24,352 nt of DNA from a virus. The DNA is taken from positions 1 to 24,352 of IMG/VR virus record IMGVR_UViG_3300025785_000092, one strand, 5' to 3'. Below are positions 1,367 to 24,188 of the stretch, piece after piece; the first letter of the stretch is position 1; the number at the start of each line of letters is the position of its first letter. The translations under genes and the position numbers were made by a program. The notes below the pieces were generated by a model that saw nothing but the letters and a program-made list of their open reading frames with translations, had not been told where the DNA came from and searched no databases.

Positions 1367-1418
1367 GATTACCTTTCGTTGGGTAATCGCATTTTAGGTT
1401 ATGCGTGTAAAAAGCAAA

Positions 1419-1456: not shown

Positions 1457-1489
1457 AGTGCTGTCCGCAGGGGGGATAGCGGCACGATG

Positions 1490-2701
1490 TCAGACTATCA
1501 GCAAATCGCTCCATCCGCGAGCACCTGTGTCAGCGCCCACCAAAAGAGTGACCATTCCAGCCTGAGAGGATTGGCCCGAGGTGGCGGTGAACCACTTAGA
1601 TCCACCGTCCATCGCTGGAACCTGCAGGATTGTCCGGCCAGTTCCCTCGCTCATTACAAAGTGGTGAAAGTGGCCCGAGCATAAGAGCTCAGCGTCAGAG
1701 ACCTGAGTGCGCCCAAGTGCCTGTGCTTTCCACCAGCCCTCCATCTTGCCCTGGCTGTTTGCGCCCGAGCGGAGTTGGTGTCCGTGAATGAATGAGACCG
1801 GCACTCCCTCTAGGTCGAGAGTCAGGCTTAGTTCATCCTCGTTCAGATTGGTCGGCATTGAGACGTGACCGTATCGAGCGGGGTTCTGCGCAATGATTTC
1901 CGAGACAGTCTCAAAGGCGGTCAGGTCGCGGTTGTCGGACCAGTCCGTGAATGACTTACCGGCTCGGCGGTTCTCTCCGTGGTTGCCTGGCACTCCCGCA
2001 GCAATGATGGGGAGTCCAAAGTCAACAAAGGTGTCGATGGCTGTAAGCACCAGTCGGCGAGCGACGCGGTCTTGCTCTCGGTCGTTTAGATCCGCAATCC
2101 AAGTTTGGTTTGCGTACCAGTCACCTGAACATCCCTCAACCAAGTCACCTAGTCCGATTAGGTAAATGGAACTCGGGGTCTTGCCAACCTTGATGAGTTC
2201 CCTTAGGCGTTGAGCGGACTGCTCATAGGCGCGCATGATGCGCTCGACGGTCTCGGTAGTCCCGCCTCGAATCTCACAGCCCTTACCGATTTGCCAGTCG
2301 CTCAACAAAACAAGAAACGCCCGCTTCGTACCGTTGACTTCAACGGCCTTGGCGGGCTTGCGCTTCATTATCTCTGAGCAAAGCAAATCAACGTCGGCGC
2401 GTTCAACGCCACCAACTCGGGGTGCAATGGTGCATCGGTAATACTTCATGCGCACGACTTCGCCGTTGCCAGCGTTAGAGTCCCATGCGCGGATTTGGAG
2501 GCTACCGTCCACGACCATTGTTTGTCGTGGGTCTAGTCCCCAGTCCTCGATGAGCTGCGCCCAAACTGCATCGTCAGGTTCGCTGGCTAATGCGGCGGTA
2601 ATGGTTCCGGTCTTTCCGTCCCATTGGATACCAGGCTCAAAGCCTTTAGGGTGAGTTTGTTTCGCCCGAGACTTAAACTCGAACTCGCCTAGATCAGTCA
2701 C
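1490..2701 (-). CDS. calcineurin-like metallophosphoesterase
   Basis: A 403-residue protein. The second part carries the metallophosphoesterase motifs in order: SDWQIGKG (D135, Q137), GLGDLVEG (D186), PGNHGE (N240, H241, E243), IHGHQ (H306, H308) and SGHFHH (H344, H346). In motif I the usual DxH is DxQ, which is seen in other phage and nuclease members of the fold. Residues 1-125 form a separate N-terminal region with WDGKTGTITAALA and a beta-rich stretch, perhaps for nucleic acid binding. Phage members are usually annotated as phosphoesterase or SbcD-like nuclease, and the substrate cannot be told here. It starts with GTG and overlaps the HTH-like gene upstream by eight bases, so they are coupled. 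It ends just before the terminator at 1419-1456. Confidence 0.85.
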   Translation of the reverse strand: MTDLGEFEFKSRAKQTHPKGFEPGIQWDGKTGTITAALASEPDDAVWAQLIEDWGLDPRQTMVVDGSLQIRAWDSNAGNGEVVRMKYYRCTIAPRVGGVERADVDLLCSEIMKRKPAKAVEVNGTKRAFLVLLSDWQIGKGCEIRGGTTETVERIMRAYEQSAQRLRELIKVGKTPSSIYLIGLGDLVEGCSGDWYANQTWIADLNDREQDRVARRLVLTAIDTFVDFGLPIIAAGVPGNHGENRRAGKSFTDWSDNRDLTAFETVSEIIAQNPARYGHVSMPTNLNEDELSLTLDLEGVPVSFIHGHQLRSGANSQGKMEGWWKAQALGRTQVSDAELLCSGHFHHFVMSEGTGRTILQVPAMDGGSKWFTATSGQSSQAGMVTLLVGADTGARGWSDLLIV

Positions 2702-2927
2702 AAGCGCACTTCCCTAATCGGTGCAACCTGAGCGTGGGGTTCTTCGACACCTCGCCAGTCTTGCTACTAAGCCAGTCGCAGATGGCTTGAGATGAGATAG
2801 TTGGCTCTGCTAAAGCGGCCTCTATCTTTTCCTTGTCCTCTGCCGACAGTTTGCCAATTAGTTGTGAGGTTCGACAAACGGTTTTCTTGACCTTGCGAAA
2901 CTCTGATAAATCAACAGTCTTTGACAT
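2694..2927 (-). CDS. small HTH-like DNA-binding protein candidate
   Basis: A 77-residue basic protein. Residues 28-58 (KLSAEDKEKIEAALAEPTIS followed by SQAICDWLSS) suggest a helix-turn-helix of the kind used to choose targets, and the end LRLHRLGKCACD matches a recurring 'RHRrGkCxC' ending of small actinobacteriophage proteins. I recognise the pattern but not a defined function. The ATG has a GGGAG ribosome site six bases upstream. Its last bases overlap the GTG start of the metallophosphoesterase gene, suggesting the two proteins are made together. The 65-base gap before it holds two GTTATAA copies (2944-2950 and 2963-2969 on the plus strand as TTATAAC), which may be part of a promoter. Confidence 0.7.
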   Translation of the reverse strand: MSKTVDLSEFRKVKKTVCRTSQLIGKLSAEDKEKIEAALAEPTISSQAICDWLSSKTGEVSKNPTLRLHRLGKCACD

Positions 2928-2992
2928 TCATTTCTCCCTTGACTTATAACGTCATTGGGAGTTTATAACAGGTTTGTCAACAAGTAAAGGAT

Positions 2993-3349
2993 TTAGTAAT
3001 TCGTCATGTCGTTGGCTAGGACGCTGACTACGCCCTCAACTGCGACTGCGGTGTGGGTCGTGTCCAGCCCGCTCGCTCCAGGTGCGCCAGCCCAGCGCCA
3101 AGTCCATTGCCCGACCTTGCCGGTGGTGGCAATGTCCGCGTGGTAAGTGCCGGTGGCAGTCCGTACAATCGTGTTAGTTGGGTCGCCTGAGCCGTTGGTG
3201 TAGGTAAAGGCCACAGGTGCGGTGTTTGGCAGGACGTATTGAAAGGTGACAACGTCGGGGTCGACCACGGTTCCGCTAATGCTGGTGAAAGGGGTCGAGG
3301 TGTAGAACCGGATGGTGGTTCCCTCGTTGACTGCTGGATTAACGGCCAT
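2993..3349 (-). CDS. Ig-like beta-sandwich structural protein
   Basis: A 118-residue protein made almost wholly of beta-type segments: TIRFYTSTPF, VVTFQYVLP, PVAFTYTNG, TGTYHADIATTG, GQWTWRWAGA, then AVAVEGVVSVL. The layout (something like 'value, context, YHadi.t...G.wtyRw.gtG...a..eg.f.V') is that of Ig-like proteins found next to tail or fibre genes. It is probably a virion accessory protein, but no binding partner is visible. Its ATG overlaps the stop of the repeat protein upstream as TAATG, so translation is coupled. Confidence 0.7.
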   Translation of the reverse strand: MAVNPAVNEGTTIRFYTSTPFTSISGTVVDPDVVTFQYVLPNTAPVAFTYTNGSGDPTNTIVRTATGTYHADIATTGKVGQWTWRWAGAPGASGLDTTHTAVAVEGVVSVLANDMTNY

Positions 3350-4473
3350 TAGATTGCTCCTTGCAAAATCTCTAGTTCAATAGTAAGCGACCCTGTCTCA
3401 AAGGCTCCGGCTAGTTGCGCGAGCTCGATGTCTCCGGCCAAGGTTGCGGTTTTGTATGCGCTCATTAGTTGTCCAGTCTCTATAGATCCGACCACGGTGG
3501 CGGTTTCGTAGGACCCCTTGACCGTTCCAGGCTGTGAGGGGTAGACCACGGTGGCTCGACCCGAGGCCGAGTAAGTACCGTTGACCGAAGCCGTGGCTGG
3601 GAAGATGAGGTAGGCGTAAGCGTTCGAAGTGAACGAGCCGGTGAGCGCACCAGTCGCCGTGATTGGCGCGATAATGATTCCCGCTGCACTTGCCGAGAAC
3701 GAAGAGGAGGTCGAAGCCGTTGCGGGGACTGTGACCGAGCCGTCTGCGTTGCTGTCAAAGGTCGACGTTAGTGAGCCGGTGGCTGGGTAGGTGATTTGAC
3801 CAAAGGCATTTGCCGAGAAGTCATACGCGCCTCGGGCTGTGCCTGGCTCGTCAACTATTCCTGACGCGCTGGCCGAGAAAGAGCTCGAGAGCGAACCGCT
3901 GGCCTGAATCGGTGGCGTGGCAGTTCCGGTAGCCGTTCCCTCAAAGTCAAATGATGCCGAGCCGGTGGCGGAAGTTGGAACCGTAATAGATCCGGTTGCG
4001 CTGGCGCTGAAACTTGCGATTAGGTATCCGCTGGCCGAAGCAACGGTTGTTCCGGTGGCGCTCGCAGAGAACGAACCCGAGAGTGAGCCGGTGGCGGGAT
4101 TAACTACTGAGCCAGTAGCACTCGCCGAGAACGTTGCGCTCGCTGAGGCCGTTGCTGGGACTAAGGGTAGTCCAGTACCACTCGCACTAAAAGAAGCGCT
4201 TAGAGAGCCTTGTGAGGGCTCTGAGACGGTTCCAGTAGCACTAGCGGAGAATGACCCCGAGAGGGTTCCCGATGCGCTGACCGGACTAATTGGCGTTCCG
4301 GTTGCCGAGCCTGTAAAGGTTGCGCTTGTAGATCCGGTAGCGGGGACCGTGACCGTTCCAACAGCCGAGGCCGAGAACGAGGCGTTGAGGCTACCAGAGC
4401 CAGAGGTTATGACCGATGGGGTTCCGTAGGCTTGACCTAGGTAGGGCAGACCAAGATAGTTTGCACCGAGCAT
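3349..4473 (-). CDS. Gly/Ser/Ala repeat protein, probable fibre or surface protein
   Basis: A 374-residue protein with about sixteen degenerate repeats of 19-23 residues from residue 25 to the end. The core is roughly 'xGSLSxSFSASATGTVxxPA', alternating beta-prone and small residues with a Pro at each junction. The last three units drift to KGSYETATVVGSIE-like forms rich in Glu. The N terminus MLGANYLGLPYLGQAYG is a short Gly/Leu/Tyr head that may anchor it to the virion. A beta-solenoid or extended fibre is likely. It sits between the tail fibre and the Ig-like protein, so a host-adhesion role is reasonable but unproven. AAGGA lies seven bases before the ATG. The repeat DNA also creates a long spurious reading frame on the plus strand. 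Confidence 0.75.
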   Translation of the reverse strand: MLGANYLGLPYLGQAYGTPSVITSGSGSLNASFSASAVGTVTVPATGSTSATFTGSATGTPISPVSASGTLSGSFSASATGTVSEPSQGSLSASFSASGTGLPLVPATASASATFSASATGSVVNPATGSLSGSFSASATGTTVASASGYLIASFSASATGSITVPTSATGSASFDFEGTATGTATPPIQASGSLSSSFSASASGIVDEPGTARGAYDFSANAFGQITYPATGSLTSTFDSNADGSVTVPATASTSSSFSASAAGIIIAPITATGALTGSFTSNAYAYLIFPATASVNGTYSASGRATVVYPSQPGTVKGSYETATVVGSIETGQLMSAYKTATLAGDIELAQLAGAFETGSLTIELEILQGAI

Positions 4474-4483
4474 TGGCTAGTCC

Positions 4484-6388
4484 TTAGTTCAGCGTGGCAA
4501 AAAATTGATAAGCGTTGAACGTTGGCGTAAATCCTGTCACCGTAGCAGGCGTTGTGTTCAGCGTAGTTCCCCAGTTTGAAGTTCGACCAGTAAGCGTGTT
4601 GGCTGTAGGCGTTTGGTTGAAGTTCATAATTGCGGCGGCGTTGGCTGTTCCGTTGCCTGAACTGTCACCAACAACGTTGAAAGTTGGAGCCGTTGTCGTG
4701 CTTGTGCCAATTTGGAAAACAACGAAGTAGTCAGTATCTGCAGATAAAGCAAGACCGGTCACTGCTGTCAAAGTCACAGTTTGATAAGTGTTAGCAACTA
4801 AAGATGGAAGCGCACCATAACCACGAACGTTGCCTGCGCTGTCGTATAAAGAAACGTAAGAGTTGGCGATTCCAGCACCGACACCTGAACAAGCAAAACC
4901 AATAGTTGCAATTGTTGCGCCTGTGGTCAAGTGAATGCGTGTTGCGTAAGCCACGCCTTTAGTTGGCGTAAAGTTGTATCCAGCAAAAGTCACAGCAGGG
5001 TCAAATGTCCAAGCCTTGACGTTGTGTGCAGTGGGAAACACTGCGGCTGGCGTTATACCTAGAGTTCCACGAGCCGCTGATGCGGTAGCTGCCCCAGTTC
5101 CACCTGAAATAATTGGTACCGTTCCGACTGCAGAATTTAGTGATGCTACGCCAATTTCTGTCCAAACGCCTGAGTTATAAACGAAACGCTTACCGCCGTT
5201 GCCAAATGCCGAAACAGAGGTTGCGCCACTAAGTGTAGAACCTTGCGAAATGTAAGTAATTGTGTCGGTTCCACCCCTTGCAACAAAGAATACGTTTCCG
5301 GTACTGCTTATCGTATTTACGGTTCCGTTTGGTGGTGCGGTGGGAAGTGTGATGGTAAGCGAACTGTTGTTAGAAATTGAGGTTTCGTTAGGTAAAGCCG
5401 TTCCACTTGCGGAGTAAAACACGACTGGCCCTGCGCCGGTGTTGGCGTATTGCAGACCAGTTGCGCCAGAGTTCACTACGAGAGACTGACCAGCGGTTCC
5501 GATTGTGGATAGACCAGTTCCACCGCCTGTGACCGCAAGTGGCAGTCCACCCATCTTGTTGATGTCGGTGGTCGTAAAGCAGAACCAGACACCGCCGGAG
5601 TAGACAAAGGTGTAGGCGGCGTTCAGAGGAATGGTGTAGGGGGTCGCAGCTCCGTAGACGGTTCCCGAGACCGAGATGGAGTTAGTCCCACCAAGGATGT
5701 TGACGGTGTAGGGGGATAGGTTCTTGATCTGATAAATAGAACCATTGACTGCGGTTGCTGGCAAAGTAATCGTCTGCCCTGATGTGCCGGTAGTACCGAA
5801 GATGGTGAACTCACCAGTACCGGCGGTGGCAGTTGCCGAACGTACTACGAGCGAGTTAGGTACTACGTTCACCCACGTTCCAGGTGTCCCTGCGGTGGTG
5901 CAGAACCAGATAGTTGCGGTCTGGTCGATGACCATGTCGCCAACTGCGAACGTACCTGATACTGGTGGACCGGAGGTGGTCGTACCGACGAGGCGTGAGC
6001 TCGAGGCTGTGGCTCCGGTTAGACCAGTTATCTTGAGGTCGGGAACGACTACTTCGCCTGTGAACGTTGCGCCCGAGAGTGGTGCAAGTTGGTTAAGCAA
6101 GTTGGCGTCAACGGTCTGTGCAATTTGGTAGCCAACAGCGATGCTCTGCGCGGTGGTTCCGTACTGTGCGCGAGTAATCGTGAATGTGTCAGTCGCTACT
6201 GCGGTGACGCGGACTATCTCGGCGTTGGAGTTTGTGGGCTGGACACCAGCGGGCCAAATGGTCGCGTCAAAAGGAATAGCAGGAAAGTATGAACCTTGAC
6301 CAGCGGTGACTACTAAAGATGTTCCGGACGTGGCGGGGCTAGGCGCTGTGGCAACTAGCGAATACGCAAAGTTTTTTAATGCGTCCAT
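4484..6388 (-). CDS. tail fibre / receptor-binding protein
   Basis: A 634-residue protein. Residues 1-110 form a beta-rich head (SLVVTAGQGSYFP, AEIVRVTAVATDTFTITRAQ, IAQTVDANLLNQL) typical of the virion-proximal part of phage fibres. The middle has fibre motifs LSGATFTGEV, TATIWFCTTAGTPGTWVNV, VTGGGTGLSTIGTAGQSL and IISGGTGAATA, the GGTG units being common in trimeric fibres. The C-terminal 170 residues (AWTFDPAVTFAGYNF onward) look like a galactose-binding-like or jelly-roll domain, the likely receptor-binding tip. Sampled GC is lower across the part encoding the tip (about 48% around 4800-4980) than in the head (about 56% near 5600), consistent with exchange of the tip. The ATG overlaps the stop of a 24-codon micro-gene as TAATG. 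Confidence 0.85.
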   Translation of the reverse strand: MDALKNFAYSLVATAPSPATSGTSLVVTAGQGSYFPAIPFDATIWPAGVQPTNSNAEIVRVTAVATDTFTITRAQYGTTAQSIAVGYQIAQTVDANLLNQLAPLSGATFTGEVVVPDLKITGLTGATASSSRLVGTTTSGPPVSGTFAVGDMVIDQTATIWFCTTAGTPGTWVNVVPNSLVVRSATATAGTGEFTIFGTTGTSGQTITLPATAVNGSIYQIKNLSPYTVNILGGTNSISVSGTVYGAATPYTIPLNAAYTFVYSGGVWFCFTTTDINKMGGLPLAVTGGGTGLSTIGTAGQSLVVNSGATGLQYANTGAGPVVFYSASGTALPNETSISNNSSLTITLPTAPPNGTVNTISSTGNVFFVARGGTDTITYISQGSTLSGATSVSAFGNGGKRFVYNSGVWTEIGVASLNSAVGTVPIISGGTGAATASAARGTLGITPAAVFPTAHNVKAWTFDPAVTFAGYNFTPTKGVAYATRIHLTTGATIATIGFACSGVGAGIANSYVSLYDSAGNVRGYGALPSLVANTYQTVTLTAVTGLALSADTDYFVVFQIGTSTTTAPTFNVVGDSSGNGTANAAAIMNFNQTPTANTLTGRTSNWGTTLNTTPATVTGFTPTFNAYQFFATLN

Positions 6389-6462
6389 TACTCATCCTCA
6401 AGCTCGTCGGGTGTGATTACGGTTCCCTCGGCGTGGGCCGAGAACTCCTGCTGGGTTCCCAT
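6388..6462 (-). CDS. 24-residue micro-gene between two TAATG junctions
   Basis: A very short frame begins MGTQQEFSAHAEGTVITP and ends in an acidic tail. Its ATG overlaps the stop of the 124-residue gene (TAATG at 6460-6464) and its TAA overlaps the ATG of the tail fibre (TAATG at 6386-6390). This arrangement means ribosomes can pass from one gene to the next by termination-reinitiation. Either the peptide is real or the frame serves to carry ribosomes to the fibre start. A CAGGAG sequence lies within it but too far from the fibre ATG to be its only ribosome site. No family is recognised. Confidence 0.5.
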   Translation of the reverse strand: MGTQQEFSAHAEGTVITPDELEDE

Positions 6463-6836
6463 TACGAGAGTGAGGTCGTGACCGCACCAATAGCAAAAGC
6501 AACCGTTGAACCGGCTGGGATAGATCCGCTCAAGCCTGTGGTCGTTCCGCCTCCGAGGTAAGTTCCACCTGAAGCGGCGGTGAACAAACCGAAGTAGGGA
6601 ACGCCTGAAGCCTCAAGTGGCATGAGGGTAAAGTTCTGCGCGTTGGTCGAAGCCTGTGAGCCAGCCGAAGCCGAGCCGAATGTGATGGCCTGACGAGCGT
6701 ACGAACCGCCGGTCACTTCACCTGATGCGCCTGATGTGCCAGGGTCGCTAGTGAAGAGTGCGAGGTAGTAGGTCGTCGAGGGAACGAACATGGCGTTGAG
6801 TCCAGCGTTCTCTTGTGCAGCGGGTAAGCGTGACAT
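6462..6836 (-). CDS. small tail/fibre-associated structural protein
   Basis: A 124-residue protein with the pattern YYLALFTSDPGTSG - EVTGGSYARQAITFGSAS - PYFGLFTAASGGTYLGGG - IPAGSTVAFAIGAV. This is a recognisable family found beside tail fibre genes of many actinobacterial and other phages, usually annotated as a minor tail or hypothetical structural protein, with a beta-sandwich likely. The ATG has an AAAGGA ribosome site. It is the first gene after a 52-base AT-rich gap holding a possible extended -10 promoter, and its stop overlaps the next start (TAATG). Confidence 0.75.
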   Translation of the reverse strand: MSRLPAAQENAGLNAMFVPSTTYYLALFTSDPGTSGASGEVTGGSYARQAITFGSASAGSQASTNAQNFTLMPLEASGVPYFGLFTAASGGTYLGGGTTTGLSGSIPAGSTVAFAIGAVTTSLS

Positions 6837-6862
6837 TAAGATTCCTTTGAATTAGTCGGTTA

Positions 6863-6871
6863 ATTTTACCA
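6863..6871 (-). promoter_or_regulatory. possible extended -10 promoter for the fibre genes
   Basis: On the minus strand TGGTAAAAT gives a TGn extension directly before TAAAAT (five of six -10 bases), in the AT-rich gap 6837-6888. No match to a -35 box is found at 16-18 bases. A direct repeat of TCGTTAT (two copies separated by one base, about 6869-6884) lies immediately upstream and could be a regulator site. It would start transcription about 30 bases before the 124-residue gene. Confidence 0.35.
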
Positions 6872-6888
6872 TAACGAAATAACGATTT

Positions 6889-7371
6889 TTATTCCGCTTT
6901 GGGGAAATGCTTGTCTTTCATGTAGTCGAGTTCAGCCATGATGTGATGTATGTCGAGCATGAGTAGCCTGAGGTTCTCGAGCTCGTCATTTGATACTTGA
7001 CTTACCTCTAGGTGATAGGCGGCAAGTTCGGCGGCAATACGGTCAGCGCGCTTGGCGGCGATTAGCAGGATTGCGCCCTGGAGCCCAGCCAAAGTGGAGA
7101 GCATGAGGTTGAGCAGGATGTAGGGGAATGGGTCGAACGGCTTATTGGTGGAGGCGTTGTAGACCATCCATACAGCCATGAATCCAATGAAGCCAAAAAC
7201 GAACGGCCACGAGCCCATTCCGTGACGCATGGCATCGGCGGCCTTTTCGCCTATGGTGCGCTCGTCACCGGATCTAACGTTGGGGTGAAACTCCCAATGG
7301 CTAGTCCTCTTGGCGCGCTTCCAAACCCTCGTGATACCCGAGGTGGCGAATGACTTCTGATTCCAGGACAT
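6889..7371 (-). CDS. DUF1003-like membrane protein
   Basis: A 160-residue protein. The core RSGDERTIGEKAADAMRHGM, then GSWPFVFGFIGFMAVWMVYN (transmembrane segment about 54-72) and FDPFPYILLNLMLSTLAGLQ (segment about 83-105) matches the DUF1003 layout of two membrane helices joined by a short loop with 'FDPyPfillNl.Ls..A'. The C-terminal part is a charged helix that faces the cytoplasm in models of this family. The family's function is not known; in this position it may act in lysis as a holin, pinholin or spanin-like partner. The ATG at 7371 overlaps the preceding gene by 71 bases; the next in-frame ATG (codon 48) would cut into the conserved region, so the longer start is preferred. Confidence 0.8.
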   Translation of the reverse strand: MSWNQKSFATSGITRVWKRAKRTSHWEFHPNVRSGDERTIGEKAADAMRHGMGSWPFVFGFIGFMAVWMVYNASTNKPFDPFPYILLNLMLSTLAGLQGAILLIAAKRADRIAAELAAYHLEVSQVSNDELENLRLLMLDIHHIMAELDYMKDKHFPKAE

Positions 7372-7597
7372 CTAGTTTCTTCTCGATTCGGTCGATAGCG
7401 TCTCGGAGAGAACCGCCACCGTTGGGGACTGTTTGCTTTTTGATTTCCCCAATTTCTTCTGCGAGTCTGTCGCTAACTGATTTAGCCAAGAGGTTGTGAA
7501 TCCAGCGTACGACAGCCCAAGCGAAACCGCCGAGGAATCCGAGCGAGGCTAGAAACTGAACCCAAAAGTTTGAGGTGTTAAGCGATAAGGCGAACAT
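7301..7597 (-). CDS. DUF2746-like single-span membrane protein, holin candidate
   Basis: A 98-residue protein with one membrane segment (about residues 11-31, WVQFLASLGFLGGFAWAVV) followed by a long charged helix with TVPNGGGSLRDAIDRIEKKL and an ending RHLGYHEGLEARQED. The 'PNGG.SLRDAIdrIE...' segment is characteristic of small actinobacteriophage proteins filed as DUF2746 or holin. Its ATG overlaps the stop of the NlpC/P60 gene as TAATG, and its 3' end overlaps the DUF1003-like gene. The three therefore form a tightly coupled lysis-type cassette. One-span topology with a long cytoplasmic coil fits a class III holin or a small accessory of the lysin, which is inference. Confidence 0.75.
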   Translation of the reverse strand: MFALSLNTSNFWVQFLASLGFLGGFAWAVVRWIHNLLAKSVSDRLAEEIGEIKKQTVPNGGGSLRDAIDRIEKKLDVLESEVIRHLGYHEGLEARQED

Positions 7598-8121
7598 TAT
7601 GCAAGCGGAACCGGCTTGGCAGGTGTGACCTGCTTTTGGCTAGGACGGAGGAATGTCTGCGGGGTGCGACCATCGACAGGGATTCCCTTTGAGTCACCGT
7701 GAGGGGCATTGACCCAGCAGTAGATAGCGCCGTTGTTGTCGCCGTAGGAGACGGTCATGATGTCGGGTCCGTTGACCTCAATCACGATGGCCGTGTGCTC
7801 GCCAACTCCGCCACCGTAGACCACGAGGTCTCCAGGCTGAACTTGGTCGGCTGGGATGTGGTGGTTCGCCACGTTCGAGAGCAGTGTGCCGGTGTAGCCG
7901 GTGTGGTTGTAGTGGCAGTTGTTGGGGTCGGGCAGTCCGGCCAGCCAGTACAGGAGAGTGACGAAGCCTGAGCAGTCTGAGTTAATTGGCGTGACGAGTG
8001 GCCAGCGACCAATCTCGTCCATGCGCTTTGCGCCCTCGGTGTAGACCTCTTGAGTTGACTTGGAGTGCTTCTGGAACCAATGCGCCCAGTCGACTAAGTG
8101 CTGTTGCTGTGGTGTGTTCAT
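7597..8121 (-). CDS. NlpC/P60-type cell-wall peptidase, endolysin candidate
   Basis: A 174-residue protein with the NlpC/P60 order: nucleophile C50 in INSDCSGFVTLLYWLAG, then VQPGDLVVYGGGVGEHTAIVI with H109, and VSYGDNNG further on. Such enzymes cut peptide links in peptidoglycan. There is no signal peptide and no clear cell-wall-binding domain, and the last 25 residues are a Pro/Lys-rich tail. It is followed by two membrane proteins, which supports a lysis role, though its place right after the tail genes also allows a virion-associated role in cell entry. AAGGA lies eight bases before the ATG. Confidence 0.85.
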   Translation of the reverse strand: MNTPQQQHLVDWAHWFQKHSKSTQEVYTEGAKRMDEIGRWPLVTPINSDCSGFVTLLYWLAGLPDPNNCHYNHTGYTGTLLSNVANHHIPADQVQPGDLVVYGGGVGEHTAIVIEVNGPDIMTVSYGDNNGAIYCWVNAPHGDSKGIPVDGRTPQTFLRPSQKQVTPAKPVPLA

Positions 8122-8132
8122 TTCTTATTTCC

Positions 8133-8747: not shown

Positions 8748-8755
8748 TTTGTCCC

Positions 8756-13549: not shown

Positions 13550-13570
13550 TGTGTCCCCTTTCTAGGTGGC

Positions 13571-14575: not shown

Positions 14576-14607
14576 TTAAGGCGCTCCTTTGGGTTGTGGG
14601 GGTTGGG

Positions 14608-14811: not shown

Positions 14812-14819
14812 GATGCTCC

Positions 14820-16270: not shown

Positions 16271-16273
16271 GAC

Positions 16274-16534: not shown

Positions 16535-16561
16535 TTAATGCTCCCTTTGCGAAGTGGCGGG

Positions 16562-16598
16562 GAGCCGGTCAGGAGAAAGGGGAAACTCTGACCGGCTC
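16562..16598 (-). terminator. strong hairpin without U-tract downstream of the major capsid gene
   Basis: Perfect 11-base inverted repeat GAGCCGGTCAG / CTGACCGGCTC (16562-16572, 16588-16598) with a 15-base loop, in the gap between the capsid gene and the zinc-ribbon gene. Minus-strand bases after the stem are CCGCCACTTC, so there is no U-tract. It may be a partial terminator, an RNA-end protector or a processing site that keeps capsid mRNA above connector mRNA. A second smaller hairpin (TCCTCT/AGAGGA, 16634-16649) includes the capsid stop codon. Confidence 0.5.
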
Positions 16599-16641
16599 AA
16601 CCCGCGATGGCTAGTTATTCACTAGCGAGTGAGTCCTCTGT

Positions 16642-18303
16642 TTAGAGGATTCCGGTGATGATTCCGGACCACGCTGGAGCGTGGAACGCAAGCGTACCGT
16701 AGGTGTAGGTCGACAGGTCGTACGACATGCCAATCTGTGGCCACTCGATGACCATCTGGTCAACAACGTTGTTTGCCGTGACGGTCGTGCTTACGCCCGA
16801 GTCAGGGAAAGGCAACTGAGTGGAGTGGATGATGGCTACGCCGCTGGGGCAAAATCTGTGCGCCATGACATCGACTAGTTTGCCCGTCGCTTCGTTAGCG
16901 ATAGCGCCAACTACTGAACCGATGCCTACGCCGTCAGCGCCGCTCTCCAACGTGAGGCGGTAGCCCTGAGTTGAAGCGTTGCTCTGAATGGTCTTGCTCA
17001 ACTCGCGGCGAACTGCAGCCGTGGTCAAGATCCAGTCGGGGTCAGCCTGAACGCTGTTGAACAGCGAGACGAAAGCCGACTGGAAGTCTCCACCAGGCTC
17101 GGAGGTCGACAACGTGCCGTTGAGGGCGTTGATGTATCCCGAGTAGGTAGGGTTGGTCAACTCTGAAACGAAGCCGTCGTAGCCTGAGGTTCCGAGGGTC
17201 GTTCCACCGAAGACGTTTCCGTTAGCGGAACCGTTGTCGGCTGAAGTTGATGGGGCAACGGTGACAACTGAGAAGTTGGCTGGGCTTGCGCCTACAGCGT
17301 TCACAGGGGTCGAACCCTTGTACAACGAACCACCAACGGTGACGTACACGTTGATTCCGATGCAACCGGCAGGGGTTGAGCTCAAAGCCGAAACCTTGAT
17401 TCCCTGACCAGCAACTGCGGTGACTGAGCCCGATGGCACGATGGCCTGTGACTCACCAGCCGCGCTGGAGAACGTGATGTATGGCGATGACACAGCACCG
17501 GCAGGAAGACCTGAACCGGAAACAGTTGCGTCAAGGGCGATGGTTGCGGTCACGCCGGAGACTGACAAAGCAGTCGAAACAGCGTTCAGCATGTTGTTCT
17601 CTTCACCGAGCATGTGTGACCAGATCGCGGCGGTGTGGCTCAACTGACGGAGGTCAGCGTAGCCCTTACCAGCGAACTCAGCCTGGAGGCTCACGGAGTC
17701 CGAGATACCCTGCTCAACGAAAGGCTTGACGATACGGTCAGCCGAGTATGAGATGAGGTTTGGACGGTTAAGAGTGACACCGTTGAATGACTGGGTGTTG
17801 GTGTTGGAGTTGAAGAATGTGTTCAGGTTGCCAACGCCGCCGGTGCGGGAGTTAGAAACACCGAGGATTCGACGGAATTCCAAAGCCTGACCAACTGCAC
17901 CAACGCGGGCGATGCTGTTGCGAAGAATGAAAGTCTTCGGAACGAGCATTTCCAATGCTGGCTGGAGGTCGTAGGGAACCAAACCGATGTTGGTGTATGG
18001 AGCACCCGAAAGTGGGTTGGTAAGGGTCCATTCCTTGACGATGTCAGTACCGGCGAGTGCAGACTCAACGGCGGCCAACTGGTCGGCGGATACGGACTTG
18101 CTGAGGTCGTCACGAAGACGTGCGCCAGCAGACTTGACGATTCCAACGCCGCGCTCAAATGAGGCTTCGCCTCGAGCTGCTTCTACACGGCCACGAGTCT
18201 GGCAAGCGGACAAAGCCGACTTGTAAGCCTCGAAGCGGTCTAGGCGCTGTTCCTTTGGCAGTCCGCCAAAGAGTTCGTCAATGGAGGGGGCAGTAATTGC
18301 CAT
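16642..18303 (-). CDS. major capsid protein, HK97 fold with an inserted domain
   Basis: A 553-residue protein, long for an HK97-fold capsid (usually 300-400). Residues 1-90 are helical, as in a delta-domain/N-arm. LVPYDLQPALEMLVPKTFIL, RRILGVSNSRTGGVG and SDSVSLQAEFAGKGYADLRQ are typical of the E-loop and spine helix side, and DWILTTAAVRRELSKTIQSN and DVMAHRFCPSGVAIIHSTQL are typical of the P/A domain. Residues about 247-372 look like an added beta-sandwich (ITFSSAAGESQ, GINVYVTVGGSLYKGS, NFSVVTVAPS), probably on the capsid surface. A GGAGAG ribosome site precedes the ATG. It follows the protease-scaffold gene as expected. Confidence 0.9.
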   Translation of the reverse strand: MAITAPSIDELFGGLPKEQRLDRFEAYKSALSACQTRGRVEAARGEASFERGVGIVKSAGARLRDDLSKSVSADQLAAVESALAGTDIVKEWTLTNPLSGAPYTNIGLVPYDLQPALEMLVPKTFILRNSIARVGAVGQALEFRRILGVSNSRTGGVGNLNTFFNSNTNTQSFNGVTLNRPNLISYSADRIVKPFVEQGISDSVSLQAEFAGKGYADLRQLSHTAAIWSHMLGEENNMLNAVSTALSVSGVTATIALDATVSGSGLPAGAVSSPYITFSSAAGESQAIVPSGSVTAVAGQGIKVSALSSTPAGCIGINVYVTVGGSLYKGSTPVNAVGASPANFSVVTVAPSTSADNGSANGNVFGGTTLGTSGYDGFVSELTNPTYSGYINALNGTLSTSEPGGDFQSAFVSLFNSVQADPDWILTTAAVRRELSKTIQSNASTQGYRLTLESGADGVGIGSVVGAIANEATGKLVDVMAHRFCPSGVAIIHSTQLPFPDSGVSTTVTANNVVDQMVIEWPQIGMSYDLSTYTYGTLAFHAPAWSGIITGIL

Positions 18304-18346
18304 GATTTTTCTCTCCTATGAGATGGTTAGTGGGTTAGGGGTACTG

Positions 18347-19516
18347 CTAGTTCTTCGCGATTGCGTCTGCGTCTTGCTCTAACTTGAGAGCCTTTTCGAC
18401 GTAAGCGTTGCGAAGACCCGAGTCGATTACCTGCGATGCGGTGCGACGGTAGCGATCCGCCTCTGCGCGCAGTTGGTCAACCTGGGCTGATTTGGTGGCT
18501 TGGTTCTGCGACATGCGCAGGCTTGGGCCACCTGGTACTGCCATCTCCTTGACTGCAGCGAGGTCGGCCTTTAGGAGTTCGAGCTCCTCTTTTGCCTCCG
18601 CCAGCGCGGTCTTGGTGGTGGTGTCGTCAAGGCCGAGTGCCTTTACGATTTCTGAACGCAACTCAGCGCGAACCTCTTCGGTCGCCTCTGGTGCGCTTGC
18701 TGACTTGATTAGGTCGGCTGATACGCCGAGTCCCATGTATGACATCATGTCGTAGTCCTTGTCTTCGTCCCATCCGGTGAATGGGGCTTCGGTTTCATTT
18801 TCGCTGGCTTCATCGGTCCACCAGTCGAGGAAAATCTGTAGTGAGCAGAGTAGTTCGCTCACGTCGCAAATCTCGTCCTCGTCGCCGTTGAGCATCTCGT
18901 CGAGCTCAGCCTTGATGAGGGCAATGAGTGACGCGCGTACAGCGTTGAGGTCTGCGAGGTTGTGCTGGTTGTCGTCGGCCTTTTCAACGTCTGCTTCGGT
19001 CGACTTAGTCCAGTCTTCGGGAATCATTGACTCCTTGCCCATAGCCTTAGCGCGGGCAATGATGTGAGCCTTAACCTTGGCTGGGTCCTTGGCGCGTCCG
19101 AATGACTGGATGGCGTTCTTTAGATCTCCAACAGTCTTGATTGGGTACGAGCCGTCAGGCAGGGCTTGACCAGCCTCGGCCATGTCCTTGCGCTCAGCGT
19201 CGGTGAACTCGCGCTTCTCGACCTCTGGCTCGTCTGCCTTGGGAGCGTCGGTAATGCCGGTGTCCTGGCGCAGGTTGGCTGCAGGGTGTGAGGGGTCTTC
19301 CTGGATGATGTCGATTGGGCTGTTCTCGGGGCGGAGTCCAGTTCCACCGCACATCTCGCAGGTGAGCCACTCGTTGTTGTTGGTGTGGACTTTGCCCTCG
19401 CCTGAGCAGTCGGTGCAAACGAGGTTTGCGTCCTCGTTGGTGCGACCCTCGGCGGCAGGAGCCTCGGTCATAACGGCTTCTTGCAGGATGTCGTCGGCCT
19501 TAGCGATTTCGGTCAT
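18347..19516 (-). CDS. possible nested scaffold-only product (internal start)
   Basis: In frame within the protease-scaffold gene, ATG at 19516 (codon 158) is preceded by GGAG eight bases upstream, in GGAGAACTAACAATG. It would give a 389-residue protein that lacks the protease but keeps the zinc motif, the following small domain and the coiled-coil scaffold. Lambda makes its scaffold from an internal start inside the protease gene in this way. The start lies at the natural boundary after the protease domain, which supports it. Confidence 0.45.
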   Translation of the reverse strand: MTEIAKADDILQEAVMTEAPAAEGRTNEDANLVCTDCSGEGKVHTNNNEWLTCEMCGGTGLRPENSPIDIIQEDPSHPAANLRQDTGITDAPKADEPEVEKREFTDAERKDMAEAGQALPDGSYPIKTVGDLKNAIQSFGRAKDPAKVKAHIIARAKAMGKESMIPEDWTKSTEADVEKADDNQHNLADLNAVRASLIALIKAELDEMLNGDEDEICDVSELLCSLQIFLDWWTDEASENETEAPFTGWDEDKDYDMMSYMGLGVSADLIKSASAPEATEEVRAELRSEIVKALGLDDTTTKTALAEAKEELELLKADLAAVKEMAVPGGPSLRMSQNQATKSAQVDQLRAEADRYRRTASQVIDSGLRNAYVEKALKLEQDADAIAKN

Positions 19517-19987
19517 TGTTAGTTCTCCATTTACGGACTTGGCGATTTCGATTCGCGCTGATGGGTTGGCTGGCCGGTCGACCAATGATACTTCTACGAT
19601 GTTGCCTCCAACGATGACACCGTTTGGGGCCTCGTCAGACTTCATCACTTGGGCTTGCTTGATGCCGATTGAGTAGCCCTTGAGGACTCCCTTGCGGACC
19701 TTGGTCGCGGTGACTGGATCTACTACTTCGGACTTGAGCATCCACTTGTCGCCATCGGCGTTGAGCTCGATGCCTACACCGGCTGCGATAGCCGAGTGCT
19801 GTTCGCGGACATTCGCACCAGTCTTGAACCATTGGGGCATGGCGGTCTTCAACCAGCCTGGGTCGCAAATCTGCTGGTCGAGGTCCAGCGTTGGGTCGGT
19901 GGCTAGACCGTAGACGTACAAAGAACCGTCTTCGGCTTCCTTGTAGGTCAGGTCTCCAATGCCAACGTAGGTAATGTCTTGGGCCAT
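18347..19987 (-). CDS. prohead protease-scaffold fusion with DnaJ-type zinc motif
   Basis: A 546-residue protein. Residues 1-150 are a prohead protease of the HK97/XkdF type (NVREQHSAIAAG with H64, LKGYSIGIKQ with S106, VEVSLVDRPANPSARI), which trims capsid and scaffold during maturation. Residues 191-218 hold two CxxCxGxG motifs (CTDCSGEG, C191/C194; CEMCGGTG, C210/C213), as in the zinc finger of DnaJ. Residues about 258-326 (REFTDAERKDMAEAGQALPDG through HIIARAKAMG) are a known small domain of phage proteases. The C-terminal part is acidic and then coiled-coil (ALAEAKEELELLKADLAAVK), as in scaffolds. The ATG at 19987 follows the portal stop by four bases; the in-frame ATG at 20068 would overlap the portal gene and is not preferred. 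An internal ribosome site at 19516 may give a scaffold-only product. Confidence 0.85.
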   Translation of the reverse strand: MAQDITYVGIGDLTYKEAEDGSLYVYGLATDPTLDLDQQICDPGWLKTAMPQWFKTGANVREQHSAIAAGVGIELNADGDKWMLKSEVVDPVTATKVRKGVLKGYSIGIKQAQVMKSDEAPNGVIVGGNIVEVSLVDRPANPSARIEIAKSVNGELTMTEIAKADDILQEAVMTEAPAAEGRTNEDANLVCTDCSGEGKVHTNNNEWLTCEMCGGTGLRPENSPIDIIQEDPSHPAANLRQDTGITDAPKADEPEVEKREFTDAERKDMAEAGQALPDGSYPIKTVGDLKNAIQSFGRAKDPAKVKAHIIARAKAMGKESMIPEDWTKSTEADVEKADDNQHNLADLNAVRASLIALIKAELDEMLNGDEDEICDVSELLCSLQIFLDWWTDEASENETEAPFTGWDEDKDYDMMSYMGLGVSADLIKSASAPEATEEVRAELRSEIVKALGLDDTTTKTALAEAKEELELLKADLAAVKEMAVPGGPSLRMSQNQATKSAQVDQLRAEADRYRRTASQVIDSGLRNAYVEKALKLEQDADAIAKN

Positions 19988-19991
19988 TTTG

Positions 19992-22682
19992 TTATTCTCC
20001 TGGTAAGGGTGAGATGGTGCAACGACAGTTCGGGTGTGAACTGTCGCTAGGTACGTCTGTGTCGTCAATCGGGTGCGGGTTCGCCGCTTCTGCGTCTAGG
20101 CAGATTTGGCAAGCGTCGTCATAAGCCAGCCAATACCAGTCGGTCAGACCGGCTTCGGTATAGGTGTCGAGAGCACCGGCGTTGTAGGCGGTGTTTGTCT
20201 CTGTAATAGCAATCATGTCGGCGCGGTAGGGGTCGGCTATGACTGCGTTGATTTGGTCGGCAATGTCCGAGGCACTAGATCCGTTAGCCACGCCGTCGAC
20301 GATGGCGGTGCGGATTCGGGTCAGGCTGGTGTCGCCAATTCCCTTAGTGACTGCGTCAATGTTGAGCAGTCGGGATTGGAGTTGGTCGCCAATCTTGGTC
20401 AAAGGAATGCGCTGGACTTGAGCCGAGCCACCGATGTTGCCGAGTTGTCCGGCATCTTTAATCAGAGCCTCTAGAGCCTTTGCCATTGGCGCGGGGTCGA
20501 GGGTGACGTTCTGAGCAACGGCCAAGTTGGTAGCCGACAGAATTGCGTCAGCGTTTCCTGCAACGTGGACCGAAGCCAAGGTTTGGTCGATGGCTTTCTT
20601 CACGCCCTTAACGCCAGCGCCGAGAGCTGAAAAAATTGCAGCGTGGTGCTTCTTTTCGTTCTTTACGCGGGCCTCGTAGCCTGGTAGGTCTTCGGCCTTG
20701 CGCTTAGTAAGCGAATGTCCTTTTGGGGTATCGCTTATCTCTGCTTTCCCTAAGTGAAAGTCGGCAACTTGAGCCTTTAGGACTGCGGCCTCTTCGGGGG
20801 TGTGGAAAACAAACTCAAACTCACGGCCTCGGGGCTTGCGGGAAAAGACCTTGTAAGCCTTTGCCTCTGCAGCCTTTTGTCCGAGAACGTCGGTCATCTC
20901 TTTGGCGGTCTGATTCTGTGGAGCCTCTAGACCAGTTTGCGGATTTTTGCCTTGACCGTTATCTTCGCGTGGGCTTTGCGCACCGACTTGTGGGAGTGCT
21001 TCTTGTGCGCCTTGTGGGTTCGTTTCACTTGGTTGTCCAATCGTTTCTCCGCCAGTCGTGACGGCTAGTTGTCCTTTGAGGAATACCGGACCCTGGGGGG
21101 TCATGATGAATGGCTCGTCCGCTTCGGGCATGTCGTAGAGGGGCTGGCCCATCTCGCCGCGAATGTCGTTCAAGGTCAGCACTCCGCTTGAGAGCGAGGT
21201 CTGATAAGCCTTGGCCTGAACCTCTTCGTTCTCGCTGGAGGTGTCGTAGTTCAGGTTGAACGTGAGGTTGGTGTCCATGCCGAGGTAGCGACGGCAGAGT
21301 GAGTTGATGCACTCAACGATGTAGTTCTCCATCGGACGGCTTGAAACCGTCTCGGCGGACATCTCTTCGCCGTCGTGCGCTCCCTTACCGCCACCAAGAC
21401 CAGCGCGGGCAATTACTCCGAGTTGGCTGGGGGCTACTCCGAAGATGCTTGCGATGCGCTTGATGATGAACTCGTCATACTCAGGCTTGTAGCGTTCGGA
21501 CATGCTCGGGGCCACGATGGGGTCGAAGCCCTTAGGCAGAACCTTGACCTTGTGGCGCTCTTCGCTAGATCCGACAAGCTTGTCGTTAAACACGCGCTCG
21601 AACTCAGCCAACTTGAGGTGGTTCAGTTCGGTCGAGTCGGTCTTCATAAAGGTCATTGGCATAGTGCCAGCCTGGAAGTCCTCAATCATCCAACGCTGAC
21701 GCTCTAGGTAGAGGGTCGCTGCAGGGATGGCTTGCTCGACTGCCGAGAATCCGTAGACCGAGTAGGTGCGACGGTTCTGAATAAAGTACGAGAGTTGGTC
21801 GGTCTTGTACGAAGCGTCAGAGTTAACGCCGGTGTAGTACTCGCCGTTGACATCTGAGTCAGGTGAGGCCGTGAACTCCCCTCGAGGGAAACCCCAAAGG
21901 ATTTGCTGGAACGCGGGTGCTGGTGGACGTGGTGTGTCGCCTCGGTCATCCAACAGAATCTTGATAGTCGAGGGGTCGATGATGTCAAAGCCAATGACCT
22001 TGCCACCGAGGTTGTACTTGGGGTAGATGCACCAGCCGTCAAAGGTGAGGATGTTCCAGGCTGATTCGCTAATCCATTGGTTCCAGCCCTTGTCGGACTG
22101 TGGGTAGGGGTTGCGCCAAAAGGCTGTGAGCTCGTCAATCTTCTCACCGAAACGCTCGCGACCAATCTTTGCCGCTTTAGCGTGGCTGACGTTTTCCTCG
22201 GTCATGATGCGCTGGATAGCGTCAGGTGACAAAGTGAACGACCACTCCATCTTGGAGATGTCAGCGGTGCGAATGGTGATGGCGCGAGAGATGATGTCGC
22301 ATTGCTCAGCGAGCGAGCGCAGAACTGACCATGGAACCTCTTGCTGGGTCAGGTTTAAGTTGTAAGCAACTTGGTACTGAAACTTGCGAGGCTCGGCGCG
22401 ACCTGTAAGCTCAGAGACAGGGTCAATCGGGCTTGGCAGGAGTGGCGCGGCTGGCCCGAGCATAGATCCGAAAGCATCACCTGGACGTGGCAGGGCAACG
22501 GCCTCCCAACCTGATTGCTGGGCTAGGCCCTGTCCGCCAACTGGCTGAGCGGGAACGACGTTGGCATAACCGGCTTGGTTGTACATGGGGGTTCCCATGA
22601 GGCTTTGCGCAGCCTTTTCAACCGCTTGGGTGATGTACTTTTCAATGTCGGCGTTGCGGTCTTTGCGACTAAAGAGTGCCAT
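19992..22682 (-). CDS. portal protein fused to MuF-like head morphogenesis protein
   Basis: An 896-residue protein. The first 540 residues are a phage portal: LNLTQQEVPWSVLRSLAEQC, SKMEWSFTLSPDA, NPYPQSDKGWNQWISESAWN, VIGFDIIDPSTIKILLDDRG, YGFSAVEQAIPAATLYLERQ and IASIFGVAPSQLGV. Residues about 560-640 are a Gln/Pro-rich linker. The last 250 residues are helical and end in a MuF/SPP1 gp7-like domain: MIAITETNTAYNAGALDTY, TDWYWLAYDDACQICLDAEA and SSHPNCRCTISPLPGE, the Cys/His/Cys set being typical. Portal (the DNA entry ring) and MuF (a minor capsid protein bound to it) are usually separate genes, so this is a natural fusion. AAGGA precedes the ATG, right after the terminase stop. Confidence 0.88.
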   Translation of the reverse strand: MALFSRKDRNADIEKYITQAVEKAAQSLMGTPMYNQAGYANVVPAQPVGGQGLAQQSGWEAVALPRPGDAFGSMLGPAAPLLPSPIDPVSELTGRAEPRKFQYQVAYNLNLTQQEVPWSVLRSLAEQCDIISRAITIRTADISKMEWSFTLSPDAIQRIMTEENVSHAKAAKIGRERFGEKIDELTAFWRNPYPQSDKGWNQWISESAWNILTFDGWCIYPKYNLGGKVIGFDIIDPSTIKILLDDRGDTPRPPAPAFQQILWGFPRGEFTASPDSDVNGEYYTGVNSDASYKTDQLSYFIQNRRTYSVYGFSAVEQAIPAATLYLERQRWMIEDFQAGTMPMTFMKTDSTELNHLKLAEFERVFNDKLVGSSEERHKVKVLPKGFDPIVAPSMSERYKPEYDEFIIKRIASIFGVAPSQLGVIARAGLGGGKGAHDGEEMSAETVSSRPMENYIVECINSLCRRYLGMDTNLTFNLNYDTSSENEEVQAKAYQTSLSSGVLTLNDIRGEMGQPLYDMPEADEPFIMTPQGPVFLKGQLAVTTGGETIGQPSETNPQGAQEALPQVGAQSPREDNGQGKNPQTGLEAPQNQTAKEMTDVLGQKAAEAKAYKVFSRKPRGREFEFVFHTPEEAAVLKAQVADFHLGKAEISDTPKGHSLTKRKAEDLPGYEARVKNEKKHHAAIFSALGAGVKGVKKAIDQTLASVHVAGNADAILSATNLAVAQNVTLDPAPMAKALEALIKDAGQLGNIGGSAQVQRIPLTKIGDQLQSRLLNIDAVTKGIGDTSLTRIRTAIVDGVANGSSASDIADQINAVIADPYRADMIAITETNTAYNAGALDTYTEAGLTDWYWLAYDDACQICLDAEAANPHPIDDTDVPSDSSHPNCRCTISPLPGE

Positions 22683-22688
22683 GAGTCC

Positions 22689-24188
22689 TTAAACGGTAGG
22701 AAAGCCGATAGAGGCTTCGTTAATAGTAGTCGGCGTGGTGTCGCTCAAAGGTTGGACCTGAGCGAATGCGGCGGATGTTCCACCTGGCAAGCCGTTGATG
22801 TTCATGCCACAGTTGCGACAGTTAGGCGCATCGTAGGCAACAGGGAATCCGCACTTGGAACAAGCCGGTGCGAGTGAGTCAAAGAATCGGTCAGCGTCAG
22901 AGCCGTAGGTAAGTCCGAGCTCGACAATGGCGTGGACTAGGGCGTCAAGGCGGTCAGGGGACTTCATACCTAGGTCAGGGACCCAAGTGGTCATTTCCTC
23001 TTCCAGTTCCTTAAACTCGCCAATGTGGGAAACACGACCCTGTTCGTACAACGCGGACACAGGCTCGGCTCGGAGTTTCTTTCCAACGCGCGCTGTAATG
23101 CCGGTGTAAGCGACATTGCGGTCGATGGCTCGGAGGGTTGCTTCGATGAAGTCTCCGCCTTGGTTCTTTTCAGCCACGACACGGTCTGCTCCGAACTCTT
23201 GGTAAGTGTTGATAACTCGTTGAGCCCAGCCCGAGGGGGTGTCTCTGCACGATCTATCAGCCAGGACATAAGCCCTGCCGAGTGCGTCTTTGCCGACTAC
23301 GACGATTCCGGTGAGGTCTGAATCCTCCCCGCTGGTGACGGCTGGGTCTACGGCCACGACCACTCTCACCAGTTCAGGCGCAGAGTTGAGTCGGGTCTTG
23401 TCAATTAAGTCTTGCGTAAATAAAGCACCCTCGATGTTCTCGAGGACTTCCCCATATAGTTCTTGCCGACCAATCCGAGTTCCCTCATATCTGGCCCTCA
23501 ACTCACGAAGAGCTGCGGGGGATAAATTGGCGGCATTGTCAAAAGTTGAGCCTCTAGTGATGACTGTTGAACCGTCGGTGCGGTTAATGAACTCTTTGAT
23601 AAGTTTCGTCGGGCGGGGCGTCGTAGTGATGACAACTTGGGGCGTTTGACCAATACGCAGGGCGGGAATAAGTCCCTCAGTCCAAGTCTCGTCATAACGC
23701 CAGGCGGCGAACTCGTCGAGCCAAGCGTAGGACAGGTTTAGTCCTCGGGCGCGGTCGGGCTCATCTGCCGAAATCATATGTATCTTTGAGCCGTTGGTTA
23801 GGTTTATCTGGCCATTGGATCTATTGAAGAATCTGAGCGCACCTTTGGGGAGGCTCTTGAGTATGCCCGATGGACCCTCGACACAGGTTCGTCTAACGTC
23901 GGTGTAGGTCGGGGCTACTACTGCGCACTCGATGTTGGGCTCGGACAGGGCTTTCTCGATAAGCCAACCGGCTCCGGTAAAGGTCTTGCCCCAGCCTCGG
24001 CCACTCAGAATTACCCAGGCAAACCAATCGCCGTCGGGTGGGAGTTGCTCTGGTCTGGCACTAGCGCGGTAGCGGGAGTCTTTTAGCCCCGCTTGTATCT
24101 CGGCTTCTTTGGTCTTAGCCTCCTCGAGCTGCAATCGCTCAAGGGCTTTCAGTTCCGCCAGTTTCTGCTTCAAGAGCATCGAGTTCAT
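22689..24188 (-). CDS. terL: large terminase subunit, with added C-terminal zinc ribbon
   Basis: A 499-residue ATPase-nuclease that packages DNA into the prohead. ATPase: Walker A SGRGWGKTF (62-70), Walker B LSYAWLDEF with D158/E159, and a coupling motif at VVITTTPRP. RNase H-like nuclease: VVVAVDPA (D281), VVAEKNQGG (E340) and SPDRLDALVHAI (D415). The N-terminal 35 residues form a charged coiled coil. At the C-terminal end C443-x2-C446 and C457-x2-C460 (ACSKCGFPV..NCRNCGM) make a zinc ribbon not found in most large terminases, followed by a Thr/Pro-rich tail. GGGGA lies before the ATG at 24188. The start overlaps the small subunit gene by 50 bases. Confidence 0.92.
   Translation of the reverse strand: MNSMLLKQKLAELKALERLQLEEAKTKEAEIQAGLKDSRYRASARPEQLPPDGDWFAWVILSGRGWGKTFTGAGWLIEKALSEPNIECAVVAPTYTDVRRTCVEGPSGILKSLPKGALRFFNRSNGQINLTNGSKIHMISADEPDRARGLNLSYAWLDEFAAWRYDETWTEGLIPALRIGQTPQVVITTTPRPTKLIKEFINRTDGSTVITRGSTFDNAANLSPAALRELRARYEGTRIGRQELYGEVLENIEGALFTQDLIDKTRLNSAPELVRVVVAVDPAVTSGEDSDLTGIVVVGKDALGRAYVLADRSCRDTPSGWAQRVINTYQEFGADRVVAEKNQGGDFIEATLRAIDRNVAYTGITARVGKKLRAEPVSALYEQGRVSHIGEFKELEEEMTTWVPDLGMKSPDRLDALVHAIVELGLTYGSDADRFFDSLAPACSKCGFPVAYDAPNCRNCGMNINGLPGGTSAAFAQVQPLSDTTPTTINEASIGFPTV

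Follow-up and report, generated by a model that had tools for sequence, protein, structure and literature searches.

The highly iterated palindromes (HIPs) of cyanobacteria, HIP1 and the alternate HIPs (GCGATCGC), are among the closest known systems to the pattern described here, and positive selection has been argued for them (PMC4390886). In the model proposed for HIP1 by Elhai, repair is directed by methylated palindromes that have to lie within about 1 kb; their number would grow to roughly one per kilobase and no further, as any additional site would bring no gain (PMC4390886). Short palindromes are also the subject of restriction-site avoidance (reviewed in PMC12707154), and, as described for phiX174, a phage genome can become accessible to mismatch repair through its GATC sites (PMC5014478). 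In lake Thaumarchaeota, GATC (N6-methyladenine) and AGCT (N4-methylcytosine) form a conserved methylation pair, for which no partner nuclease has been reported (PMC6329791). Here we analyzed a 24,352-base phage contig from IMG/VR (IMGVR_UViG_3300025785_000092; "the window" denotes this whole stretch of DNA), the main feature of which is the even spacing of GATC and, likewise, of AGCT. This feature was missed by a preliminary description of the window, which had reported that GATC is depleted and concentrated in the heptamer TAGATCC (GGATCTA on the other strand). The spacing lies far beyond chance, recurs in relatives at mostly different positions and is renewed by compensating gains and losses.

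The window contains exactly 34 GATC sites, separated by gaps of 923, 490, 603, 793, 504, 342, 1395, 797, 748, 869, 717, 725, 929, 1112, 351, 523 and 761 bp (gaps 1 to 17) and of 572, 591, 655, 524, 98, 593, 738, 594, 831, 669, 594, 561, 1290, 897, 786 and 567 bp (gaps 18 to 33). The mean gap is 701 bp and the coefficient of variation (CV) is 0.36, compared to about 0.97 at random; this evenness was not reached in any of 200,000 random placements, of which 45 had a largest gap so small. When all 4-mers of the window are ranked by CV, GATC is the lowest and AGCT comes next, and a scan of 589 degenerate palindromes in the window revealed no other word comparable to these two. The evenness is present in each third of the window and runs across the boundaries of its genes, which lie on the minus strand in the order terminase, portal, tail genes. 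The heptamer was rejected as the true unit of this ruler, since its 20 sites alone have a CV of 0.78; the ruler is bare GATC. That the spacing pattern is real we regard as practically certain. The sites, called from the sequence (entries concerning relatives also from alignment), are listed below, the 20 heptamers first and then the GATC sites in other contexts, which have no strand; all are GATC array sites except the one entered simply as a GATC site.

1597..1603, plus strand, heptamer TAGATCC
2087..2093, plus strand, heptamer TAGATCC
3483..3489, plus strand, heptamer TAGATCC
3987..3993, plus strand, heptamer TAGATCC
4329..4335, plus strand, heptamer TAGATCC
6521..6527, plus strand, heptamer TAGATCC
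7270..7276, minus strand, heptamer TAGATCC
8138..8144, plus strand, heptamer TAGATCC
8856..8862, minus strand, heptamer TAGATCC
9580..9586, plus strand, heptamer TAGATCC
11972..11978, plus strand, heptamer TAGATCC
12495..12501, plus strand, heptamer TAGATCC
13828..13834, plus strand, heptamer TAGATCC
15075..15081, minus strand, heptamer TAGATCC
15598..15604, plus strand, heptamer TAGATCC, absent in the relative L011
19716..19722, minus strand, heptamer TAGATCC
20276..20282, plus strand, heptamer TAGATCC, absent in the relative L013
21566..21572, plus strand, heptamer TAGATCC
22463..22469, plus strand, heptamer TAGATCC
23817..23823, minus strand, heptamer TAGATCC, lost in six relatives
676..679, other context
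2692..2695, other context
5726..5729, other context
10511..10514, other context
11623..11626, other context
13258..13261, in TAGATCTA
14421..14424, other context
15698..15701, GATC site, forming the sole close pair with 15600 at a distance of 98 bp, not present in L011
16291..16294, other context
17029..17032, other context
17623..17626, other context
18454..18457, other context
19123..19126, other context
23251..23254, other context

Base composition predicts 91 GATC sites in the window and a Markov model 76. As a codon-aware null we used 2,000 synonymous codon permutations, which preserve every protein and all codon counts and gave 78.5 ± 7.2 GATC sites, the 34 observed being 0.43 times this expectation. 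TAGATCC occurs 15 times on the plus strand and five times on the minus strand, 20 in total, against 1.0 ± 1.0 in the permutations (maximum, 6), and 25 of the 34 GATC sites lie within TAGATC/GATCTA. The hand counts of the preliminary description match these figures, with positions agreeing to within 2 bases, and a null that keeps codon use does not predict them; an artifact of codon usage or composition was thus rejected by synonymous shuffling. Several other 7-mers exceed the base-composition expectation five- to sixfold for codon reasons, so that the raw heptamer ratio alone would be unconvincing and it is the codon-aware null that gives it significance. The GATC sites are found inside genes and occupy all three reading frames. 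Gly-Ser is written GGA TCT 14 times and is followed by A in 13 of them, whereas A follows TCT in 24 of 71 cases overall in the window, indicating that the preferred word reaches past the codons. The synonymous null, the occurrence in three frames and the A after GGA TCT establish selection on the DNA word itself, which the preliminary description had proposed and which the compensating turnover described below also strongly supports.

The second word, AGCT, has 38 sites in the window where 112 are expected (about 0.34-fold), with a mean gap of 647 bp and a CV of 0.48; in the coding set there are 35, against 103.9 expected. Its sites are mostly GAGCT/AGCTC. CAGCTG is absent from the coding set of the window (9.3 expected). 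The positions of GATC and AGCT in the window showed no relation to each other, and a joint ruler made of both words was rejected because the two arrays are positionally independent.

192..24130, no strand, AGCT array of 38 sites (192, 1036, 1686, ... 23511, 24127), called from the sequence

With the large terminase subunit of the window as query, a related terminase was found on 78 viral contigs, which, judging from the JGI metagenome prefixes of most of them, presumably come largely from bog and other freshwater lakes.

22689..24188, minus strand, terminase large subunit, the query used to find the family
19992..22682, minus strand, portal protein fused to a minor head domain, carrying three array sites

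The family test covered 34 contigs or loci, none shorter than 9 kb; because some overlap, not all are independent. GATC was significantly even in 25 of the 34 and AGCT in 12 of the 29 testable; at the same threshold, none of the other 14 palindromic 4-mers was even, and non-palindromic 4-mers were so in 0.4% of tests. In each of six larger relatives analyzed whole (G001 to G006), GATC had the lowest or second-lowest CV of all 4-mers. The relatives keep both arrays at mostly different positions, with mean GATC gaps mostly of 500 to 830 bp. In the low-G+C members L055, L056 and L038, in which the natural GATC density is already about one per 400 to 460 bp, GATC is even at an observed-to-expected ratio (O/E) of about 0.7 to 1.06. 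Since these members show evenness with almost no depletion, spacing is the conserved property and depletion its by-product. Plain avoidance has another appearance: over 38 kb, G001 (L087 plus L088) has no CATG and three CGCG, against 84 and 178 expected, unlike its even GATC and AGCT, and G004 has no AGCT, no CCGG and a single CGCG.

The heptamer is a form of the array site specific to this lineage: G002 and G005 keep the GATC array without heptamer enrichment, and in the window the 14 sites outside the heptamer occupy gaps between its copies in a single array. The idea of a polar binding site, put forward in the preliminary description, is weakly supported, as the strand bias recurs in G001 (14:2, coding strand), whereas G002 has equal numbers (4:4).

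When the window is aligned with relatives that are 82 to 98% identical to it, single GATC sites are seen to be gained and lost while the spacing is re-established. Six relatives have lost site 23818, and all six carry a new GATC 30 bp off (23788), probably the result of one inherited event. L011 lacks both 15600 and 15698 and has instead a GATC at the position matching 15566, while L013 lacks 20278 and has a GATC at 20617. In the 499 family pairs that were aligned, a GATC had been gained within 100 bp of 40% of the lost ones, compared to 14% for random gains, and the corresponding figures for AGCT were 33% and 15%. For six control palindromes, nearby gain ranged from 0.6 to 1.6 times the expectation, CTAG being the highest. 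Since the 499 pairs are not independent, we place the weight on the contrast with these controls and not on a p-value.

G003 (L091) appeared to be an exception, with a GATC O/E of 0.87 when taken whole. A cassette at 5.5 to 12.8 kb, rich in genes without family homologues, contains 27 irregular GATC sites (O/E, 1.26), and its flanks retain both the GATC and the AGCT arrays. The cassette (5500-12800) was probably imported recently, and newly acquired DNA is without the ruler. Directly beside it lies a C5 methyltransferase split over two open reading frames (13068-14221). Release of the array by a phage methyltransferase in G003 was rejected, since the flanks keep the array and only the imported cassette is without it. 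L042 and L103, the latter reached via its methyltransferase, have ordinary GATC throughout.

We then considered what kind of selection the gaps require. Under a rule that penalizes only close neighbors, gaps beyond its range decay no faster than the natural site density, for which we took the Markov estimate. GATC gaps above 500 bp imply a site activity of about 1/40 bp, compared to the natural 1/320. A fuller model, which combines the removal of surplus sites with the closing of gaps longer than a limit and has a gap peak at about 650 bp, outperformed pair repulsion by a difference in the Akaike information criterion (ΔAIC) of 100 for 344 pooled GATC gaps and of 19 for the window alone. For AGCT, pair repulsion was preferred by the pooled family gaps, and the fuller model individually by the window, G001, L132 and L165. 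Long-gap closing therefore has strong support in the case of GATC and mixed support in that of AGCT. The depletion of GATC (34 versus 78.5) and of AGCT (35 versus 103.9 in the coding set) against the codon-aware null agrees with restriction-site avoidance, but the leftover GATC sites are neither random (CV, 0.36) nor unreplaced (replacement, 0.40 versus 0.14). Ordinary restriction avoidance is therefore not enough by itself. Nor can everything be explained by evasion of a host enzyme that acts on GATC in other contexts, as the preliminary description had offered: escape gives loss, and plainly avoided words drop to zero, whereas here there is a 20-fold enriched context, even spacing and closing of long gaps.

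Outside the family, we sampled 59 viral contigs, selected by the presence of a related methyltransferase or of a distant terminase; in these, only AGCT, CCGG, GATC and GGCC were evenly spaced, plus one case of ACGT. The sister contigs L129 and L132, unrelated to the window, have even CCGG, GGCC and AGCT (CV, 0.32 to 0.57) and ordinary GATC. In L170, GATC is even (CV, 0.53) without depletion (O/E, 0.99); CCWGG is also rather even in this contig. L107 to L110, L116, L118, L121, L124, L143 and L172 have no GATC and no AGCT over 7.6 to 20 kb, and L106 has one GATC and no AGCT. Since many contigs have neither word, enzymes acting on GATC and AGCT probably exist in that environment. The contigs analyzed are fragments and are related to one another, and the choice of words was not preregistered, though GATC was given by the earlier finding. 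No GATC or AGCT ruler was found in ten cultured or named comparators, which included E. coli K-12 (50 kb), lambda, DSL-LC01, a Microcystis phage, phiC31 and Arthrobacter, Curtobacterium, Mycobacterium and Roseobacter phages. The ruler is thus not universal, being missing in E. coli, lambda and all actinophages tested. In the environmental record MW202482, CCWGG and GGCC were weakly even. Cultured relatives of the non-family phages with rulers match essentially only in their methyltransferase, and literature searches for evenly spaced GATC in phages revealed nothing direct.

As to the host, relatives encode WhiB proteins, which we take to mark actinobacterial hosts, and the family phages appear to infect lake actinobacteria. 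G001 carries two overlapping WhiB-family genes in tandem (L088:9695-10500). A single scan of genome contigs for a host gave only a distant Ignavibacteriales match. Many family contigs reaching far enough carry a methyltransferase. The slot just before the terminase genes is occupied by alternative, unrelated enzymes, of the PF05869 Dam type or the DPPY N6/N4 type, and a third type is located elsewhere; the slot enzymes (L043, L056, L072, L079, L080 / L054, L081) end about 530 to 670 bp before terL. G002 has the Dam type and L043 the DPPY type, and G001 carries an enzyme of the SPPY type. Two array carriers, L024 and L050, have no such methyltransferase in about 10 kb upstream, and homologues of the G001-type enzyme occur in phages with neither GATC nor AGCT. 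A phage methyltransferase was rejected as the cause of the array, and the independence of the array from known phage enzymes points to the host. The window also encodes a DUF1003 membrane protein (6889-7371) in the tail/lysis region, conserved in the family.

The family shares with the HIPs the use of methyltransferase-type words, one HIP having a GATC core, at roughly one per kilobase. HIPs, however, are octamers that occur in excess in bacterial chromosomes and have cognate methyltransferases, whereas the phages have two bare 4-mers, depleted yet even, in a lineage-specific heptamer context. The palindromes themselves are below expectation, only the non-palindromic heptamer being enriched; a density near one per kilobase kept by selection is found (701 bp, with compensating turnover), and the HIP1 repair model predicts the gap limit observed in the family and a mean spacing close to the one observed. 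Restriction-site avoidance has in common with the family short palindromes below expectation, GATC and AGCT being restriction/modification words, but it predicts loss and not even spacing, context enrichment or compensating gain. In phiX174, GATC content likewise governs the access of the phage genome to a limited-reach host process (PMC5014478), but that phage has no GATC at all, whereas the window family retains a minimal covering set. The Thaumarchaeota pair (PMC6329791) consists of exactly the same two words, in different hosts. Stoperators, long asymmetric intergenic motifs in one orientation, do not match the in-gene sites with a 4-bp core in both orientations. Taken together, the ruler resembles a HIP-like array of recognition marks, which are probably targets of host DNA methyltransferases.

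The explanation that we tentatively favor, with somewhat less than even confidence, is that the sites are methylation marks set at intervals and recognized by a process of short reach, for which strand discrimination is the most plausible; besides the even spacing, the turnover, the gap models, the low-G+C members and the imported cassette, the HIP1 repair model, the phiX174 work on GATC and the Thaumarchaeota pair lead us to prefer it. GATC and, separately, AGCT would be maintained in the phage family as spaced recognition marks, about one per 600 to 700 bases, surplus sites being removed and lost ones replaced nearby. The enzymes that target the sites would be sequence specific and most likely host-encoded actinobacterial DNA methyltransferases, one for GATC and another for AGCT. 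The process reading the marks would reach a few hundred bases on each side, so that DNA lying farther than roughly 1 kb from any mark would cost fitness. The best single candidate for this process is the discrimination of strands during replication or repair, which has been proposed for HIP1 sites. An excess of sites would carry a cost, probably because other hosts restrict DNA at these words. TAGATCC would be the site form preferred by this lineage, presumably the context that its enzyme handles best.

Several points weigh against such marks. To our knowledge, Actinobacteria generally lack MutS/MutL, and MutHLS is absent, so that textbook methyl-directed repair is inapplicable; the likely hosts of the window family, we assume, are without MutHLS, unlike in the phiX174 case. 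Since the GATC and AGCT arrays ignore each other, the two words are not interchangeable marks of one process. The pooled family AGCT gaps are fitted best by pair repulsion alone, and no phage methyltransferase common to all array carriers was found. In addition, no methylated motifs are reported for seven actinobacterial drafts from another lake (PMC6329791).

It is unlikely, though worth serious consideration, that the pattern reflects avoidance of a two-site nuclease, a host enzyme (Type IIE-like, or McrBC-like on methylated sites) that cuts only close pairs, so that these would be lost from the genome and the sites left over would appear even. A two-site requirement is documented for such enzymes (PMC12707154), the complete absence of GATC and AGCT from many other bog-lake phage contigs suggests that restriction acts there on just these two words, and the pooled AGCT gaps are compatible with pair repulsion, although those of the window alone are not. 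Such a nuclease, however, predicts a long exponential tail of gaps, and long GATC gaps are too rare for this (ΔAIC, 100). It also leaves unexplained the 20-fold enriched heptamer, the evenness without depletion in L170 and L038 and the replacement sites near lost ones.

We consider it rather improbable that the sites are a binding array for a DNA-organizing or regulatory protein of phage or host, in the manner of stoperators or of a nucleoid protein, for which TAGATCC would be the best site. The extended polar word (15:5 in the window, 14:2 in G001), the regular spacing and the location inside genes regardless of frame would fit such an array, but its even unit is bare GATC, with 14 sites outside the heptamer, and the flanking preference differs between relatives. 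Two independent words would moreover need two proteins, and other phages use AGCT, CCGG and GGCC, which are methyltransferase/restriction words. Marks made by the phage's own methyltransferases for self-protection are quite improbable: non-orthologous types are indeed swapped in the slot before the terminase of this methyltransferase-rich family, but L024 and L050 are without such a gene, the G001-type enzyme is found in phages devoid of both words, and self-protection gives no reason for closing long gaps. Codon usage, base composition or chance has virtually no probability left as the source of the pattern. The codon-driven 7-mers show that some enrichment can arise in this way, but the synonymous shuffles refute it for GATC and the heptamer, and chance is opposed by the 200,000 placements and by a pattern common to the family and missing in lambda, E. 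coli and the tested actinophages.

Spaced methylation marks also have a broader version, which we regard as possible but doubtful, namely, that in many phages selection keeps rulers of short methyltransferase words (GATC and AGCT, in others CCGG and GGCC) at about 0.3 to 0.8 kb. An undescribed host process would then have to meet a mark within a few hundred bases, each word being independent, and phages sharing such hosts would have to maintain the ruler or else lose every copy of the word. The spacing of restriction/methylation words, beyond their frequency, appears to be under selection in phage genomes, and even spacing may be a readable trace of a distance-limited process on DNA. If the marks serve repair or self-recognition in actinobacteria, they would bear on how old and new strands are discriminated without MutH and on why HIP sites exist.

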